Source of the DNA: Nitrospira sp. ND1
GTDB lineage: Bacteria; Nitrospirota; Nitrospiria; Nitrospirales; Nitrospiraceae
Assembly: GCF_900170025.1 (NCBI RefSeq)
Contig: NZ_FWEX01000006.1
Coordinates: 3,029,839 to 3,093,838 of the forward strand
Direction of reading: 5' to 3'
Length of the DNA: 64,000 nt
The translations under genes and the position numbers were made by a program. The notes beneath the pieces were generated by a model. The model saw only the letters and a list, made by a program, of their open reading frames with translations. It was not told where the DNA came from and did no database searches. Positions 15,056-22,138 of this stretch are shown one piece after another. Every line of letters starts with the position of its first letter. Positions within the stretch are counted from its first letter, which is position 1.

Positions 15056-16063
15056 ATGGCCGACCGCATAAAGCCGAAAATGGGGAGGCGACCTAAGGCC
15101 TACAGTCAGGCGGACCGCTTTGCGCGAATGCTTCGAGTGTTGTCCACCCGTGCAGTGTCGGTCAGGGACCTTGCTCAGGAACTTGGGATATCGGTGCGGC
15201 AGGTCTATCGCGACCTCGACGGCATGCAGGAGGCGGGGCACCCGTTGGAACAGTCGGACGGCGATGGCGAAAAGACCTGGCACCTGCCTCTGGGATACAA
15301 GGGCCTGCCGCAGATTGCCGTGACGCCCTATGAGCTCATGGCGCTGCATGGCGCGAAAAGTCATATAGGCTATCTTAAGGGTACGCCCCTGGTCGAGAAC
15401 CTGGAGGCATTGATTGGGAAGGTGGAGAGCGCCTTGCCTCACAAGGTGACGAACCATCTTGCTCGCATCAACGATGTGTTTCTTCCGCGCCAGGCACCGG
15501 TTCGTGACTATTCCCGCCATGGGGAGGTCTTGGCAAAACTGGAGAAAGCGTTGCTGCTCCAGCGGACGGTGACTCTGCACCACATCAGGCCGGGCTATGA
15601 AGAACCGGCCGAACATTCCGTGGATCCCTACCGGTTACTATTCCACCAATTCGGTCTCTATGTGCTGGGCTTCTCACATCGTGCGCAGGCTGTTCGGCTG
15701 TTTGCTGTCGAGCGCATTGTGGCCCTCGATGTCGCTGACCAGTCCTTCGATATCCCGAGTGATTTGAAGCTCGACATGAACTATGAGCGAGTCTTTGGCC
15801 TGATTGAAGAACCGGCTCAGCTCGTTCGAATTCGGTTCACCGCCGAGGTGTCCTATTTGATCCGTGAGCGCCGCTGGCATCCCAGTCAGCAGAATGAAGC
15901 TCAGCAGGACGGCTCCATTATCGTTACCATGACCATCGGTGGCATGGAGGAACTGGCTGCCTGGGTGCTCTCTTGGGGGCAGCAGGCCAAGGTGTTGGAA
16001 CCTCAAGTGCTCGTTGAGACCGTGAAGTGGCAGCTCAGTTGTGCTCTAAGCCGCTATGGCTAG
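15056..16063 (+). CDS. YafY-type HTH and WYL-domain transcriptional regulator
   Basis: 335 residues. The N-terminal winged HTH (about 20-75) includes VRDLAQELGISVRQVYRDLDGM. A WYL domain (about 150-245) carries VDPYRLLFHQFGLYVLGFSH, and a WCX-like C-terminal extension follows. WYL domains bind nucleic-acid-like or nucleotide ligands and often control defence or DNA-repair loci. The start has GAGGAGGCAT just upstream. A 21-bp perfect palindrome lies in the gap after this gene, and a related site lies 2.5 kb downstream; this regulator is the obvious candidate to bind them. Confidence 0.87.
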   Translation: MADRIKPKMGRRPKAYSQADRFARMLRVLSTRAVSVRDLAQELGISVRQVYRDLDGMQEAGHPLEQSDGDGEKTWHLPLGYKGLPQIAVTPYELMALHGAKSHIGYLKGTPLVENLEALIGKVESALPHKVTNHLARINDVFLPRQAPVRDYSRHGEVLAKLEKALLLQRTVTLHHIRPGYEEPAEHSVDPYRLLFHQFGLYVLGFSHRAQAVRLFAVERIVALDVADQSFDIPSDLKLDMNYERVFGLIEEPAQLVRIRFTAEVSYLIRERRWHPSQQNEAQQDGSIIVTMTIGGMEELAAWVLSWGQQAKVLEPQVLVETVKWQLSCALSRYG

Positions 16064-16186
16064 GTTTCCTGTACGAATTCATCGCCGGATGCCGATATGG
16101 GCACCGCAACCTGCCCGCGAACCTCCAAAGAGTTGCCACTCGACCCAGTCCGGTCCCAGTAGCGGTCTGCTCCTGCCTCACCCGCT

Positions 16187-16207
16187 GCGTGACATTTTCT
16201 GTCACGC
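16187..16207. promoter_or_regulatory. Palindromic operator, site 1
   Basis: A perfect inverted repeat with 8-bp arms, GCGTGACA and TGTCACGC, around TTTTC. A TAATGT hexamer at 16216-16221 could be the -10 box of the downstream operon. The second site at 18646-18666 keeps the right arm, the spacer and the distance to a TAnnnT hexamer. That makes regulation by one protein likely. Confidence 0.65.
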
Positions 16208-16250
16208 CTGCAAGGTAATGTCCTCTCGTCGACCTTCCGGGAGGATTGTC

Positions 16251-17507
16251 ATGCTGACGAGGCGGAATCTGTTCAAGTTCGCTGCGACATTCGGGTTGGG
16301 TGTCTTCGCGCCACGGTTTGAGCAGCTGGCCAGCGGTGCGGCCGTGGAGTCGCGGCAGGGGCAAGACCCATCTCCGGAGCGTGTCCTCTCACAGCACGAA
16401 CAATCGTTCCTGGATCTGGAATGGTTCGAAAATCTCAAAGATGACCTGGATTGTGTGGAGGTCGTCGCGTATGTGGCCCCGACGTTCAACATGCCTGCTT
16501 CGGCTGAAATCAATTTGATCCGGGGAAGTTCCCATTGTCTCTTTTGTGGCGAGGCCGGTTTTCGCGTGGGAGCGGAATCCTTCACGTGCAAGTGGTGCAA
16601 TGCGGAGGGATCCGCGATTGAGTTGTATGCCAAAGCTGAAGGACTGCCGCATGAGGGAGCGGCGGCGCGCCTTGAAGCACTGTTGAACGACGGGTTGCTC
16701 AAGGGCCGTCGTGGGGAAAACGAATATGCGCACAGAATGCTGGCGGAAGCGGCGCGCTTCTACCATGCCTCGCTGTGCGAAAGTCCGGAAGGGGCAGTGG
16801 CCAGGGAGTGCCTGGCCGAACAAGGGATCGCGCCGTCCACGATCGAAGGGTTTCGGCTTGGCTATGCGCCGGCTGAGCCGGACGACCTCTTAGGCCGCCA
16901 CTTGGTGGCGGTAGGGTATGCGATTCCCAGGCTCTTGCAAACGGTTCGCGTGAATGAAGAGGGTGAGGAAAATCTGGTCGATCGATATGGCGGCGGCCAC
17001 CTGCTCATTCCAATTGGTGATCAGACAGGGCGTAGCTGGGGATTCATGAAACACAGGCTCACCTCGCGGCAGGACTCTCTGCAGGCAGGATGGACGCAGG
17101 ACACCTTGGCCGTTTCGGAGCGGCGGCTGCGCAGACTCATCTTTCTCCATCCCGCCTGGCCTCAGGATTTCAACCGGCACCAGAGAGTGTTGATTACGGA
17201 GACACCTTGGGAGGTCGTCGCCTTGCACAATGCCGGTATTGAGAATGCGGTCTATCTGTTCGACTGCGTGACCGATCCAATTCGTCTTCGGGTGCTGCTG
17301 TCTCTCGGCCGAGACTTGATTTGTTGCGTCGACCCCAAAGGGCGAAGGTCGGTGAAGGCCTTGCGCGTCATTGAAGTACTTGAACGTGAGACGCGGCACA
17401 TTCGCGTGATGTCCGTGCCGTACAAGGGTGGCCTGATGGAACTGCTGCAAGCGAGCGGCCCCCAGGCGGTACGCGAGGCAATGAGTCAGGCTATCCCGTT
17501 TCTTTAG
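16251..17507 (+). CDS. Degenerate DnaG-primase-like protein with Tat-like N-terminus
   Basis: 418 residues. Residues 1-30 look like a twin-arginine signal (TRRNLFKFAATFGLG). A CHC2-type zinc ribbon follows (Cys96, Cys99, Cys113, Cys116, then GSAIELYAKAEGL). Next is the DnaG N-terminal core (170-270: ARFYHASLCESPEG, then YGGGHLLIPIGDQTGRSWGF). Last is a Toprim-like domain (312-418: VLITETPWEVVALHNAGIENAV). The Toprim Glu317 is kept, but the usual Asp-x-Asp is CVDPKG, so metal-dependent primase activity is doubtful. The ATG at 16251 has GGGAGG before it; the longer frame would erase the palindromic operator region. It heads a putative operon with the next two genes. Role unknown. Confidence 0.7.
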   Translation: MLTRRNLFKFAATFGLGVFAPRFEQLASGAAVESRQGQDPSPERVLSQHEQSFLDLEWFENLKDDLDCVEVVAYVAPTFNMPASAEINLIRGSSHCLFCGEAGFRVGAESFTCKWCNAEGSAIELYAKAEGLPHEGAAARLEALLNDGLLKGRRGENEYAHRMLAEAARFYHASLCESPEGAVARECLAEQGIAPSTIEGFRLGYAPAEPDDLLGRHLVAVGYAIPRLLQTVRVNEEGEENLVDRYGGGHLLIPIGDQTGRSWGFMKHRLTSRQDSLQAGWTQDTLAVSERRLRRLIFLHPAWPQDFNRHQRVLITETPWEVVALHNAGIENAVYLFDCVTDPIRLRVLLSLGRDLICCVDPKGRRSVKALRVIEVLERETRHIRVMSVPYKGGLMELLQASGPQAVREAMSQAIPFL

Positions 17508-17543
17508 TGGCTGGAGGCGTGAGGTCTAGGAGGGAATGTTGTC

Positions 17544-17783
17544 ATGGAATGGCTGGTGCTGCTCATGTTGCAGGTGTTGGTTCCGGCAGACGCGCTGATG
17601 CAGGTGACTCTGAACAAATCCCTGGCGCAGGTCATTCAGGAGCAGATCAGTTGCCGCAAGGAGTTCGATGAGGCGAGGCCGGAGTTCGAGCGGGTGACTC
17701 GGATCGACGACCCCATGGCGCGTTCAAATGCCATCGACAAATTGCGCACGACCGTGCTACTACGCTGCGGGGTGAGGCCGTGA
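17544..17783 (+). CDS. Small hypothetical protein, 79 residues
   Basis: It starts with a short hydrophobic stretch (EWLVLLMLQVLVP) that could be a signal or membrane segment. A helical, charged part with two Cys (ISCRKEF and LLRCGV) follows. No family recognised. The ATG follows AGGAGG. It lies 36 bases after the primase-like gene and 31 before the glycosylase-fold gene, so co-transcription is likely. Confidence 0.6.
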   Translation: MEWLVLLMLQVLVPADALMQVTLNKSLAQVIQEQISCRKEFDEARPEFERVTRIDDPMARSNAIDKLRTTVLLRCGVRP

Positions 17784-17814
17784 GTGTAAAACTCTATTGT
17801 TGGAGGAGTTGTTC

Positions 17815-18606
17815 ATGACTGAAAGTGAGATGAATAGGTTATTGCTGGACATTAGGAAAGAGTTAGCTGACTACTTACATAGATCAGGATCGATTTTCTA
17901 CACCGGTCGTCAGGCAATGAGAAAGGGTGATTTTTATTTGATGGGGCTCAACCCTGGTGGTGACCCAGGTATTATGAAAGAAGAGACAATTGAAAAGTCT
18001 TTGACTGACTGGCGGAGGAGAGAGCCCGAGGAGTGGTCAGAGTATAAGGATGTGGACTGGGGGAAAAAGAAGTCAGATCCCAAGTATGAGAACCCTGGAA
18101 ACTCTAGGCATCAAAAAAGGGTGAGGAGCTTTTGCACGAATTGCTTGGGCGAGCCTGATGTGAGGAATGTGTTTTCTGCCAATGCCATTTTTGAGAGGAC
18201 TAGAAAGGGAGATCACTTGCCAAAGGGTACCAGCCTTGAGCATGTCTGCTGGCAAGTCCATCAGCTCTTGTTTTTGAAAGTTCAGCCGAAATACATCATT
18301 TGCCTTGGGCACGGACTGGATAGCTCGTTCGATCGATTGAAGAGTGAGAAATGTCTAGCCGTCGGTGATTTTTGCGAGGAGGCATTTAAGATGCCGAATG
18401 GAACCAGAAATTTTTACATCCGCTGGTTTGAGGCGGCGAAAATTCAGAATCCATTGCCGGGTTTGGAACGCTTGGTTCGCATCATAGGTGTTCCTCATCC
18501 GAGTTGGTTTGATCTCGGCGCCGACTGGTTCAGCCAGGCGTGCAGAACGCTTCCCCTGTTCGATTCGAACCCACTCAGATGTAAAAATGCGAATAGATAC
18601 GGCTGA
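17815..18606 (+). CDS. Uracil-DNA glycosylase superfamily-fold protein
   Basis: 263 residues. Motif 1 is LMGLNPGGDP (44-51), the core strand is KYIICLGHG, and the C-terminal motif is VPHPSWF (226-232), together the signature of the UDG fold. Members excise uracil or other damaged bases, and some outlying branches have other or unknown activity. It has no iron-sulfur cluster Cys set. The codon use is much more AT-rich than neighbouring genes, which points to recent acquisition. The start has GGAGGAG upstream. Context: third gene behind the primase-like protein and a WYL regulator. Confidence 0.72.
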   Translation: MTESEMNRLLLDIRKELADYLHRSGSIFYTGRQAMRKGDFYLMGLNPGGDPGIMKEETIEKSLTDWRRREPEEWSEYKDVDWGKKKSDPKYENPGNSRHQKRVRSFCTNCLGEPDVRNVFSANAIFERTRKGDHLPKGTSLEHVCWQVHQLLFLKVQPKYIICLGHGLDSSFDRLKSEKCLAVGDFCEEAFKMPNGTRNFYIRWFEAAKIQNPLPGLERLVRIIGVPHPSWFDLGADWFSQACRTLPLFDSNPLRCKNANRYG

Positions 18607-18645
18607 CTTTCTAAGGGTTTCAGCCACACGTATGTCCCTACCCTG

Positions 18646-18666
18646 ATGTGACCTTTTCTGTCACGC
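18646..18666. promoter_or_regulatory. Palindromic operator, site 2
   Basis: ATGTGACC-TTTTC-TGTCACGC. The right arm and spacer are identical to site 1, and the left arm keeps GTGAC. TAGACT at 18675-18680 lies at the same distance as TAATGT does from site 1. It is 143 bases upstream of the small gene at 18809. Confidence 0.6.
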
Positions 18667-18808
18667 TTCTGTCGTAGACTTCCCTGATTCATTCTTAATG
18701 CTTATCCGCTACCGGAAGTCGGGAACGGCCGCGATATGAGCTCGGAAACCTCGCGTTCGGGACGGCCAATCGACATGAGTGCACAACGCTATGATAGGAG
18801 GTTCTTTG

Positions 18809-19039
18809 ATGGACAGATATATTTACACCAACTGGCGCGGCCAGCAATTTGTCATTGATGATAGCTTCATCGACGATATGAAGAAGCGAATTTCCATGGA
18901 CGATGGGTCTGATTCGAGCGAGCTGGCCGATCTCACACCGGAACTATTGATGGAAATGCTTCCAACGATGGAGGGCATTGAGCGATGCCGGCAATTGGAG
19001 GAACTGTGGGCCGCCTCGGTCGACCCCCACGGTTGTTGA
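18809..19039 (+). CDS. Small acidic hypothetical protein, 76 residues
   Basis: It begins MDRYIYTNWRGQQFVIDDSF and has an acidic helical second half. No family recognised. The ATG follows ATAGGAGG. The operator-like site at 18646 suggests it belongs to the same regulon as the primase-like operon. Eleven bases after the stop is a 22-bp repeat that marks the start of an accessory patch. Confidence 0.6.
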   Translation: MDRYIYTNWRGQQFVIDDSFIDDMKKRISMDDGSDSSELADLTPELLMEMLPTMEGIERCRQLEELWAASVDPHGC

Positions 19040-19375: not shown

Positions 19376-19597
19376 ATGCCCTCCGAGACACATCTGAGCT
19401 CGAAAGAGAAGCAGAGCCGATACCGGAGCCGGTTGCGCCAAAAGGGTTTGCGGCCGGTGCAGATCTGGGTTCCGGACACCCGTGCTGCCGGGTTTGCAAC
19501 TGAATGTCGCAGGCAGGCGCGCCTTGTGGCACGGTCCGCGCAGGAAAGGCCTGTTCTTGACTTCATCTCAGAGATCGCTGATTGGGACAATGGATGA
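19376..19597 (+). CDS. MazE-type antitoxin (DUF3018)
   Basis: 73 residues. It begins with a basic region (SSKEKQSRYRSRLRQKGLRPVQIWVPDTR) typical of the DUF3018 antitoxins, with a helical C-terminus that should wrap the toxin. The ATG at 19376 follows GAGGGAGAAAATCCT. The stop overlaps the toxin start by ATGA. It likely neutralises MazF and represses the operon. Confidence 0.82.
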   Translation: MPSETHLSSKEKQSRYRSRLRQKGLRPVQIWVPDTRAAGFATECRRQARLVARSAQERPVLDFISEIADWDNG

Positions 19598-19920
19598 AGC
19601 GCGGCGATCTTGTTGCGGTCGCTGCCAAGGGCCACTATAGCGGAAAACCGCGGCCTGCCCTTGTCCTGCAATCCAATCTCTTCTCTGCGCTTGGGAGCGT
19701 GACGATCTGCCTCCTGACGACTGAATTTCTTGATGCGCCGCTGTTTCGCCTTGCCGTTGAGCCTTCGCCGAAAAATGGCCTGAAGCAGCCCTCGCAGATT
19801 ATGATCGATAAGATCGTGACCGTTCCTCATGACGCAATTGGTGCCCGGATCGGCTCGCTCGATCATGAAGCGATGGCCCGCGTCGACCGCTCCCTGGCCG
19901 TATTTCTCGGGATCGTCTAA
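19594..19920 (+). CDS. MazF/PemK-family endoribonuclease toxin
   Basis: 108 residues with the PemK-like barrel: MKRGDLVAVAA, then GKPRPALVLQS, the catalytic-type strand VTICLLTTE, and QIMIDKIVTVPHDAIG. It cuts mRNA at short sequence motifs. Full length, and coupled to the antitoxin by an ATGA overlap. It is the only apparently intact toxin-antitoxin pair in the window. Confidence 0.88.
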   Translation: MKRGDLVAVAAKGHYSGKPRPALVLQSNLFSALGSVTICLLTTEFLDAPLFRLAVEPSPKNGLKQPSQIMIDKIVTVPHDAIGARIGSLDHEAMARVDRSLAVFLGIV

Positions 19921-20701: not shown

Positions 20702-22138
20702 TTACCGTTCCTCGCGTTCCACTTCTGCGACGGACAGCAAGACGTCCTTCGCCCGTACCGGGATGACTTTTCGGGCCTCAGGTTTAACTCCGCGCTCGAC
20801 CAGGGCCAAGCGGACCGGACCGAGGGTACCGCTCAGGGCTTCGAGTTTGGCGGTGGAGAGCCTAACGGCGATGTTTCGTGCGTTCTTCGACACATGCCGA
20901 CGCTCCCGATCGTTCAACACCACCGGCACGGTACCGAGATAGCCCTTGCTACCGGGGCCTTCATCGGCTTTCGCCGCTTCGGGAGTCGCATAGAGTCGAT
21001 ACACAGCGCTCTTATCCGTGGGAACGGCGAGCTCGTTCAGGTGCAGTCTCGCGCGGCCTCCCTGTTCAACGACTTTCATCATCTTAGCACGCGTCTGTCC
21101 GGCAAACTTCAGGGTCTGGCTGACCCGCCAATCGGTCTTGATGGGGAACCAATCGAGGAGGCAGGGGAGCTGCTCCAAGAACTTCGACGGCCCATAGGTA
21201 TAACGCAATTGAGTGTCGTGGTTCAGGACCTGTGAGGCCTTGATCGACCGCCACACTTTATTTTCATCGTAGAAATTCCATGTCAGGTTCAAGAAGGCCG
21301 TTGCCGTCGGGTTCGTGTGGATGGACGAGGCCTTGTTCCAGTCCGACCACATCTTGTCCACGTTGGCATGATGCGCGTAGAAGACGGGATCTTTCCCGGC
21401 TGAATCGAAGAAGCCCATGTCGCCGCCGACGTCGACGTGGACCGCACCGTGGGGTGTCCCCTCAGGAATGCCGCTGCCGCTCGCCGTACCGCCGAACTCT
21501 GTGAAGGTGTCCGCCGTGAGGGCAGCCTCCATGACGTCTTCCCCGACATCTTCTTCCGGGATTTCCTCCGTCGGGTCCATGCTGCGGGTCCCGTTCCACA
21601 GTGGGTTGCTGTTGTCGTTCGGATCGCTGTAGGCGCCGGGCAGCTTGCGGTGGCTCGGTGTGTCCCAGTCCCAGTAGGGAAGGCGGAAATTCATGTCGCC
21701 GATCAGCTTCCCGAGGATCCGTTCGTGAAAGTAGAGATAGGCGCGGTGCCAGGCGAAGAATTGCCAGGTGAAATGGACCTGAGTGCCGGCGCCGCAGTAC
21801 CAGCAATGGACGTTGGCCTGCCGCAGGAATCCGCGCGGGTCGTTCGGGGCGCTGGTATCGAGCGCGCGCATGGCCTTATAGGCATCCTTGAGTTGTGTGA
21901 TCTCCGCCGCACTCAGGGTGCTGGCGGGGCGGCGCGGGAGGATCATTCGACAGTCCTTGCGCCATGGTTTCGGTGTCCCGGGATTGCCTGGAGGTTCGCA
22001 CACGGCCAGCACCGATTCCGGCAACGCCAGGCCGCCGAACAGGCCCGCGCCTAGCGCCCCGACACCCAATCCCATCCGCTGAAGAAATGACCTCCGCGAC
22101 GGCATGGTCGCCCACATGCGGTCGTCCAGATTCGACAT
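20702..22138 (-). CDS. Tat-exported tyrosinase/polyphenol oxidase
   Basis: 478 residues. A twin-arginine signal (SRRSFLQRMGLGVGALGAGLFGGLA) leads to a type-3 copper domain. CuA His lie in ANVHCWYC, HFTWQ and FAWHRAYLYFHER. CuB His lie in GTPHGAVHVDVGG and DPVFYAHHANVDKMW. The HCWYC Cys could form the Cys-His thioether of polyphenol oxidases. The C-terminal domain (about 330-478) resembles the plant-type PPO caps. It oxidises phenols to quinones in the periplasm. The start has GGAGGT at ideal distance. Unusual in an autotroph. Confidence 0.9.
   Translation of the reverse strand: MSNLDDRMWATMPSRRSFLQRMGLGVGALGAGLFGGLALPESVLAVCEPPGNPGTPKPWRKDCRMILPRRPASTLSAAEITQLKDAYKAMRALDTSAPNDPRGFLRQANVHCWYCGAGTQVHFTWQFFAWHRAYLYFHERILGKLIGDMNFRLPYWDWDTPSHRKLPGAYSDPNDNSNPLWNGTRSMDPTEEIPEEDVGEDVMEAALTADTFTEFGGTASGSGIPEGTPHGAVHVDVGGDMGFFDSAGKDPVFYAHHANVDKMWSDWNKASSIHTNPTATAFLNLTWNFYDENKVWRSIKASQVLNHDTQLRYTYGPSKFLEQLPCLLDWFPIKTDWRVSQTLKFAGQTRAKMMKVVEQGGRARLHLNELAVPTDKSAVYRLYATPEAAKADEGPGSKGYLGTVPVVLNDRERRHVSKNARNIAVRLSTAKLEALSGTLGPVRLALVERGVKPEARKVIPVRAKDVLLSVAEVEREER

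Follow-up and report, generated by a model that had tools for sequence, protein, structure and literature searches.

A locus of a DriD-like WYL protein, a degenerate DnaG-like protein and exchangeable cargo genes in Nitrospira sp. ND1 and its relatives

DriD of Caulobacter is an ssDNA-activated transcriptional activator, which recognizes the site ATACGAC-N7-GTCGTAT overlapping the -35 region at a fixed distance to the -10 element; the oligonucleotide of the CCNA_03891 promoter shows CGAC-CGTTTCT-GTCGC on its other strand (PMC12340889). Caulobacter dnaG and recJ are activated by DriD. WYL proteins of the BrxR family were shown to repress defence islands via inverted repeats separated by 5-bp spacers (PMC9122601), and the use of a DNA glycosylase in defence has a precedent in Brig1 (PMC11078745).

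In the 64,000-nucleotide stretch of the Nitrospira sp. ND1 genome analysed here (the window), a WYL regulator gene (15056-16063, plus strand) was found to encode a protein with Pfam matches to WCX (1.5e-17), WYL (1.3e-14) and HTH_11 (3e-7). Its closest PDB chains (9pfq, 9pfv and 9pga; E 1.4e-17) were those of Caulobacter DriD, to which it is homologous from end to end, sharing the wHTH-WYL-WCX order over an alignment of 300 residues. DriD's WYL-domain Arg set is kept only in part, so that the ligand may differ from that of DriD, and, whereas DriD controls repair and division genes, the WYL protein here appears to serve one defence-like locus. PADLOC models identified no known system among the window's own genes; strong matches were obtained for the WYL protein only, to CRISPR-associated WYL models and a Cas3c model.

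Gene arrangement and operator sites

The WYL gene is followed on the plus strand by a DnaG-like gene (16251-17507), a gene for a conserved 79-aa protein (17544-17783), a UDG-superfamily-like gene occupying a cargo slot (17815-18606) and a gene for a conserved 76-aa protein (YIYTNWRGKxFVID...; 18809-19039). The gene order and the intergenic gaps of 36 and 31 bases described in a first-pass annotation were confirmed, and the perfect palindrome that it placed 5' of the DnaG-like gene, GCGTGACA-TTTTC-TGTCACGC, lies exactly at 16187-16207 (operator 1). The similar second site reported 5' of the 76-aa gene is also present, at 18648-18664 (operator 2, GTGACCTTTTCTGTCAC), as is the equally placed TAnnnT, which lies ten bases after GTCAC at both sites and represents a putative -10 element (TAATGT, 16216-16221, and TAGACT, 18675-18680, both plus strand).

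Random occurrence across the genome, which would have spoken against the proposed module, was not observed: exact matches to the operator motif GTGACNTTTTCNGTCAC in the 4.45 Mb genome were limited to operators 1 and 2. With the wider pattern TGTGACNTNNTCTGTCACR at one mismatch or fewer, 31 matches were found in 15 of the 16 genomes searched, and 28 of these fell within the locus; the reversed-pattern control under the same conditions (16 genomes, up to one mismatch) gave zero matches. The other three are orthologous and lie inside the rpoA coding sequence. This operator-like 19-mer (G000:C6:568106-568124, with orthologues in G015 and G022) is conserved as coding sequence and is probably a chance match; as the genome's third operator it was rejected as a regulon member.

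In the relatives, the same operator precedes each transcription unit, and the operators of the locus take the form GTGAC-N7-GTCAC with the spacer CTTTTCT or similar. In an alignment of 48 sites, the distance from operator to TAnnnT was constant, a few being GAnnnT-like, and no -35 hexamer was seen at any of the 48. TG one base before TAnnnT, as in an extended -10 element, occurs in most relatives and is absent from the window's two promoters. No operator was found 5' of the WYL gene itself.

The operators thus resemble the DriD site in the GAC-N7-GTC palindrome, the TTTCT spacer, the overlap with the -35 region and the fixed distance to the -10 element, although by our own reading they stand about one base farther from it. 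The locus also recalls BrxR and CapW in having inverted repeats and a WYL protein adjoining candidate defence genes. Those proteins, however, act as repressors and have a site 5' of the gene that encodes them, whereas the sites here precede only the target units at a promoter-locked spacing, and the inverted repeat 5' of the regulator's own gene that characterizes the BrxR type is missing.

The DnaG-like protein and the two small proteins

The DnaG-like protein matched TIGR01391 (9e-20) and DNAG_N (1.6e-7) in Pfam/NCBIfam, and its AlphaFold model (pLDDT 72) gave Aquifex and E. coli DnaG as the first PDB matches, with a Foldseek E value of 5.8e-14 against DnaG 2au3. It shares with DnaG primase the Zn ribbon, the DNAG_N (RNA-polymerase) domain and the Toprim fold, and the four zinc-binding Cys residues are invariant. 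It differs from DnaG primase in having an N-terminal Tat signal and no helicase-binding domain, and in the loss of the Toprim acids; the first Glu is kept, DPD is changed to DPK and the third acidic motif is lost. For comparison with the genome's own DnaG, the Toprim part only was used. In a second DnaG-like paralogue carried by relatives, the second and third acidic motifs are both lost. The degenerate primase of the first-pass annotation was therefore upheld, the DnaG fold and Zn ribbon being present and the Toprim acids lost, but the Tat signal and the second DnaG-like gene of the relatives had escaped it, as had the DriD-type operator, which speaks for activation and not repression. Decay into a pseudogene was rejected by the dN/dS values of both paralogues, which indicate purifying selection on the first (0.18-0.32) and on the second (mostly 0.15-0.33, with one value of 0.43).

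Every full-length DnaG-like member starts with a twin-arginine motif (MLTRRNLFKFAATFGLG in the window), in which R4, R5, F8 and K9 are invariant. Among 472 long ORFs, a start-anchored twin-arginine motif with a hydrophobic stretch was detected in 19, all 19 of them belonging to the DnaG-like family. The two Arg codons vary synonymously (AGG CGG, AGA CGA, AGA CGC, AGA CGT and AGG AGG), which argues for selection on the Arg-Arg protein sequence. The Pfam TAT_signal model scored above its cut-off at the N-terminus of one orthologue and below it in two others, and none of the Pfam/NCBIfam Tat models reached E ≤ 1 against the full-length DnaG-like proteins; since TAT_signal also misses a textbook Tat signal in the full-length neighbouring tyrosinase, the model is insensitive. 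Two TatC genes are present in the genome, and from the conserved signal we infer that the DnaG-like protein is exported via the Tat system.

The 79-aa protein, kept in nearly all loci, is hydrophobic at its N-terminus and carries a pair of Cys residues (Cys37 and Cys75) that most members conserve; it may therefore share the destination of the DnaG-like protein. The 76-aa protein is conserved in relatives together with its own operator.

A conserved frame with exchangeable cargo

Out of 175 Nitrospiraceae genomes, 31 contain this WYL subfamily and 17 contain the DnaG-like family, a match in G399 having been excluded as an ordinary DnaG of 655 aa. These 17 all fall within the 31, and the two genes nearly always adjoin. 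The neighbourhood search proposed earlier thus showed the WYL, DnaG-like and 79-aa genes to be conserved together among Nitrospiraceae; the frame reaches N. moscoviensis across the family, and the WYL and DnaG-like pair occurs in the same order in one genome of another family. A contig scan for spread beyond Nitrospirota, made with two short patterns, found Nitrospirota loci only.

The order in relatives is uvrA, NAT (arylamine N-acetyltransferase), WYL, operator, DnaG-like, 79-aa, variable genes, operator, 76-aa, operator and second DnaG-like gene, beyond which stand conserved flanking genes. Many species thus keep the frame at a single position of the chromosome while its cargo is swapped. 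The empty site is clean in G011, where the right flank directly follows NAT, and other variable genes occupy it in frame-less genomes; in one of these, G001, a gene for a TIR-like protein (FLSYAGLDRKIA...; L141 7441-8064, minus strand) lies at the hotspot between uvrA and the right flank.

A clade B of the WYL proteins occupies a second site on the chromosome (L095-L108), where the operator is almost the same and variable nucleases occur again, but a BCS1/IetA-like AAA ATPase takes the place of the DnaG-like protein. The AAA gene of G309 takes the exact position that the DnaG-like gene has in other loci, and G025 combines 79-aa, 76-aa and AAA genes in one locus. What appears to be a third type of frame was seen in G207 (L107) and G036 (L086), where the WYL gene precedes one for a 183-aa-type protein, accompanied by HhH-GPD or DUF2779 proteins; the operator is retained in G207.

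The UDG-like gene, described earlier as AT-rich, indeed has a GC content of 47.2% against 59.3% for the window, and its composition suggests that it was probably acquired recently. Homologues of its protein at 62%, 40% and 37% were found in three relatives, and plasmids of Sphingobium and Roseomonas also carry relatives of it. The sequences GxNPG (motif I) and HPS (motif II) are invariant in four homologues, and we take the GLNPGG and HPS motifs of the window's protein to resemble those of MUG/SMUG-type glycosylases. The UDG fold previously assigned is therefore putative, being based on these motifs and on weak profile evidence: no match to the window's protein was found in Pfam or PADLOC, the best of nine profiles was family 4 UDG at P 0.0015, its cousins gave weak UDG profile matches, and a PDB search with its profile gave weak, mixed matches including one UDG at E 0.93. 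An AlphaFold2 model from two sequences reached a pLDDT of 38. The resemblance to Brig1 and other defence glycosylases lies in a UDG-superfamily-like protein amid defence-type genes; sequence homology with Brig1 is only putative, and the gene here stands within a WYL/DnaG-like operon.

Most genomes with the conserved frame lack the UDG-like gene, and its postulated role as a conserved partner was rejected: it is one of many interchangeable cargo genes, present in the window, ACE_NIT7, G309 and clade B G351 and as a remnant in G012, while G133 has a more distant UDG-superfamily protein. The slot otherwise holds PDC-M15A and B (G015, G013, G018; upstream of WYL in G373), Mrr_cat/PDC-S02 (G022, with an Mrr-like gene in G278), GmrSD (G007; G025, upstream of WYL; clade B G252 and G373), PD-(D/E)XK (clade B G189, G309 and G351) and HhH-GPD (G207), to which come a probable PD-(D/E)XK, by motif, in N. 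moscoviensis, G026, G016 and G244 and matches to PDDEXK_4 and to HEC-05/GmrSD of PADLOC, several of these genes being assigned to nucleases by motifs only. The GmrSD-like gene of G007 (L035, 8336-11865) is interrupted by an insertion sequence, and this copy is probably inactive. PDC-M15, PDC-S02 and PDC-S26 of PADLOC and the type IV restriction systems GmrSD and Mrr are thus related to the locus through the cargo slot of relatives; the window's slot, in contrast, holds the UDG-like gene, and the WYL/DnaG-like frame is absent from PADLOC. A viral origin was rejected, the DnaG-like and UDG-like proteins having no confirmed relatives in IMG/VR and the plasmid matches to the former being ordinary primases; phage records likewise contained no relatives of the UDG-like protein.

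Possible function and alternatives

We consider it rather probable that the locus is an inducible anti-phage module directed at DNA with interchangeable effectors. This reading is suggested by the conserved frame, the locus-specific operator and a slot filled with nucleases, glycosylases and PADLOC defence candidates, and both WYL control and glycosylases have precedents in defence (PMC9122601, PMC11078745). The defence or surveillance module first proposed for the window is supported by the same observations, including the conserved WYL, DnaG-like and 79-aa genes, but not with the UDG-like gene as a conserved partner. In the mechanism that we propose, a DriD-type WYL homodimer would bind the GTGAC-N7-GTCAC palindromes in place of a -35 element and, upon binding ssDNA from infection or damage, would recruit RNA polymerase to the weak -10 promoters. 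Three products would come from the main unit: the DnaG derivative, catalytically dead and exported via Tat, a small protein directed to the membrane or periplasm, and an effector that can be exchanged, here the UDG-like glycosylase and elsewhere an Mrr, GmrSD or PD-(D/E)XK nuclease. Judging from these families, the effector would cut foreign DNA or strip bases from it, probably where the bases are modified. Modified bases are the targets of enzymes of the GmrSD, Mrr and UDG types, so that the foreign DNA attacked may be base-modified. With its Zn ribbon and polymerase cleft, the exported primase-like protein would bind incoming or single-stranded DNA and aid recognition; such binding at the cell envelope, although probable, is the weakest step. 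A new class of envelope-coupled immunity, in which this Tat-exported dead primase would recognize incoming DNA at the inner membrane or outside it and work with the cytoplasmic swappable effector under the ssDNA-sensing WYL switch, is put forward as a tentative possibility.

Repression of the locus by a BrxR/CapW-type WYL protein, released on infection, appears rather unlikely, even though the BrxR family offers a precedent for repression through inverted repeats in defence islands (PMC9122601) and a repressor, too, would act at a palindrome overlapping the -35 region. The nearest structures are DriD rather than BrxR, the WYL gene has no operator before it as BrxR does, and an exact distance to TAnnnT without a -35 hexamer at 48 sites is required for activation and not for repression; operator type and spacing therefore favour activation, as far as can be read from the sites. 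That the palindromes are instead RNA hairpins, serving as attenuators or terminators, is extremely unlikely: they can form 8-bp stems, but conservation extends to the asymmetric spacer (TTTTCT) and to the TAnnnT that follows, several relatives' sites break one pair (GAGAC...GTCAC) yet keep GAC-N7-GTC, and the sites have no U-run.

A host DNA-damage regulon of the DriD or PafBC kind, whose glycosylase and DnaG-like protein would repair DNA or restart replication, would fit the activation of dnaG and recJ by DriD, the repair families UDG and HhH-GPD and the adjoining uvrA gene. It is nevertheless improbable, given that relatives fill the slot with nucleases of the restriction type and with defence candidates known from PADLOC, and given the dead primase site and export signal of the DnaG-like protein, the patchy occurrence and the four ordinary UDGs and own DnaG already present in the genome. 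A Tat signal on the DnaG-like protein, together with a 79-aa protein that looks exported as well, could also indicate uptake or destruction of external DNA outside the cytoplasm, with the primase-like protein as main actor and the cargo as unrelated passengers of a hotspot that receives other variable genes, such as the TIR-like one, in frame-less genomes. The cargo genes, however, follow the 79-aa gene closely as part of the operon that the operator controls, and nearly all belong to families that attack DNA, which makes this explanation very unlikely.

WYL control of defence islands and glycosylase defence are known. The frame that combines a DriD-type activator, a dead DnaG with a Tat signal and the 79-aa protein had no counterpart in PADLOC, in PHROGs or in the literature searched, and one of its components may be categorically new. 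If the defence reading is true, phage defence would be linked to an ssDNA-sensing activator of the DriD type, new nucleases and glycosylases could be found by position in a regulated landing slot, and one would have to ask why a cell exports a dead primase. Since the cultured, fully sequenced species Nitrospira moscoviensis has the locus, it is open to experiment.

Directly behind the locus, the window encodes a MazE-like antitoxin and a PemK/MazF toxin (19376-19920, plus strand; Pfam 1.1e-25 and 3.9e-22), and a MazF-like gene lies within the locus of G026. The tyrosinase with the textbook twin-arginine signal is encoded at 20702-22138 on the minus strand, and its gene adjoins the locus in several relatives.
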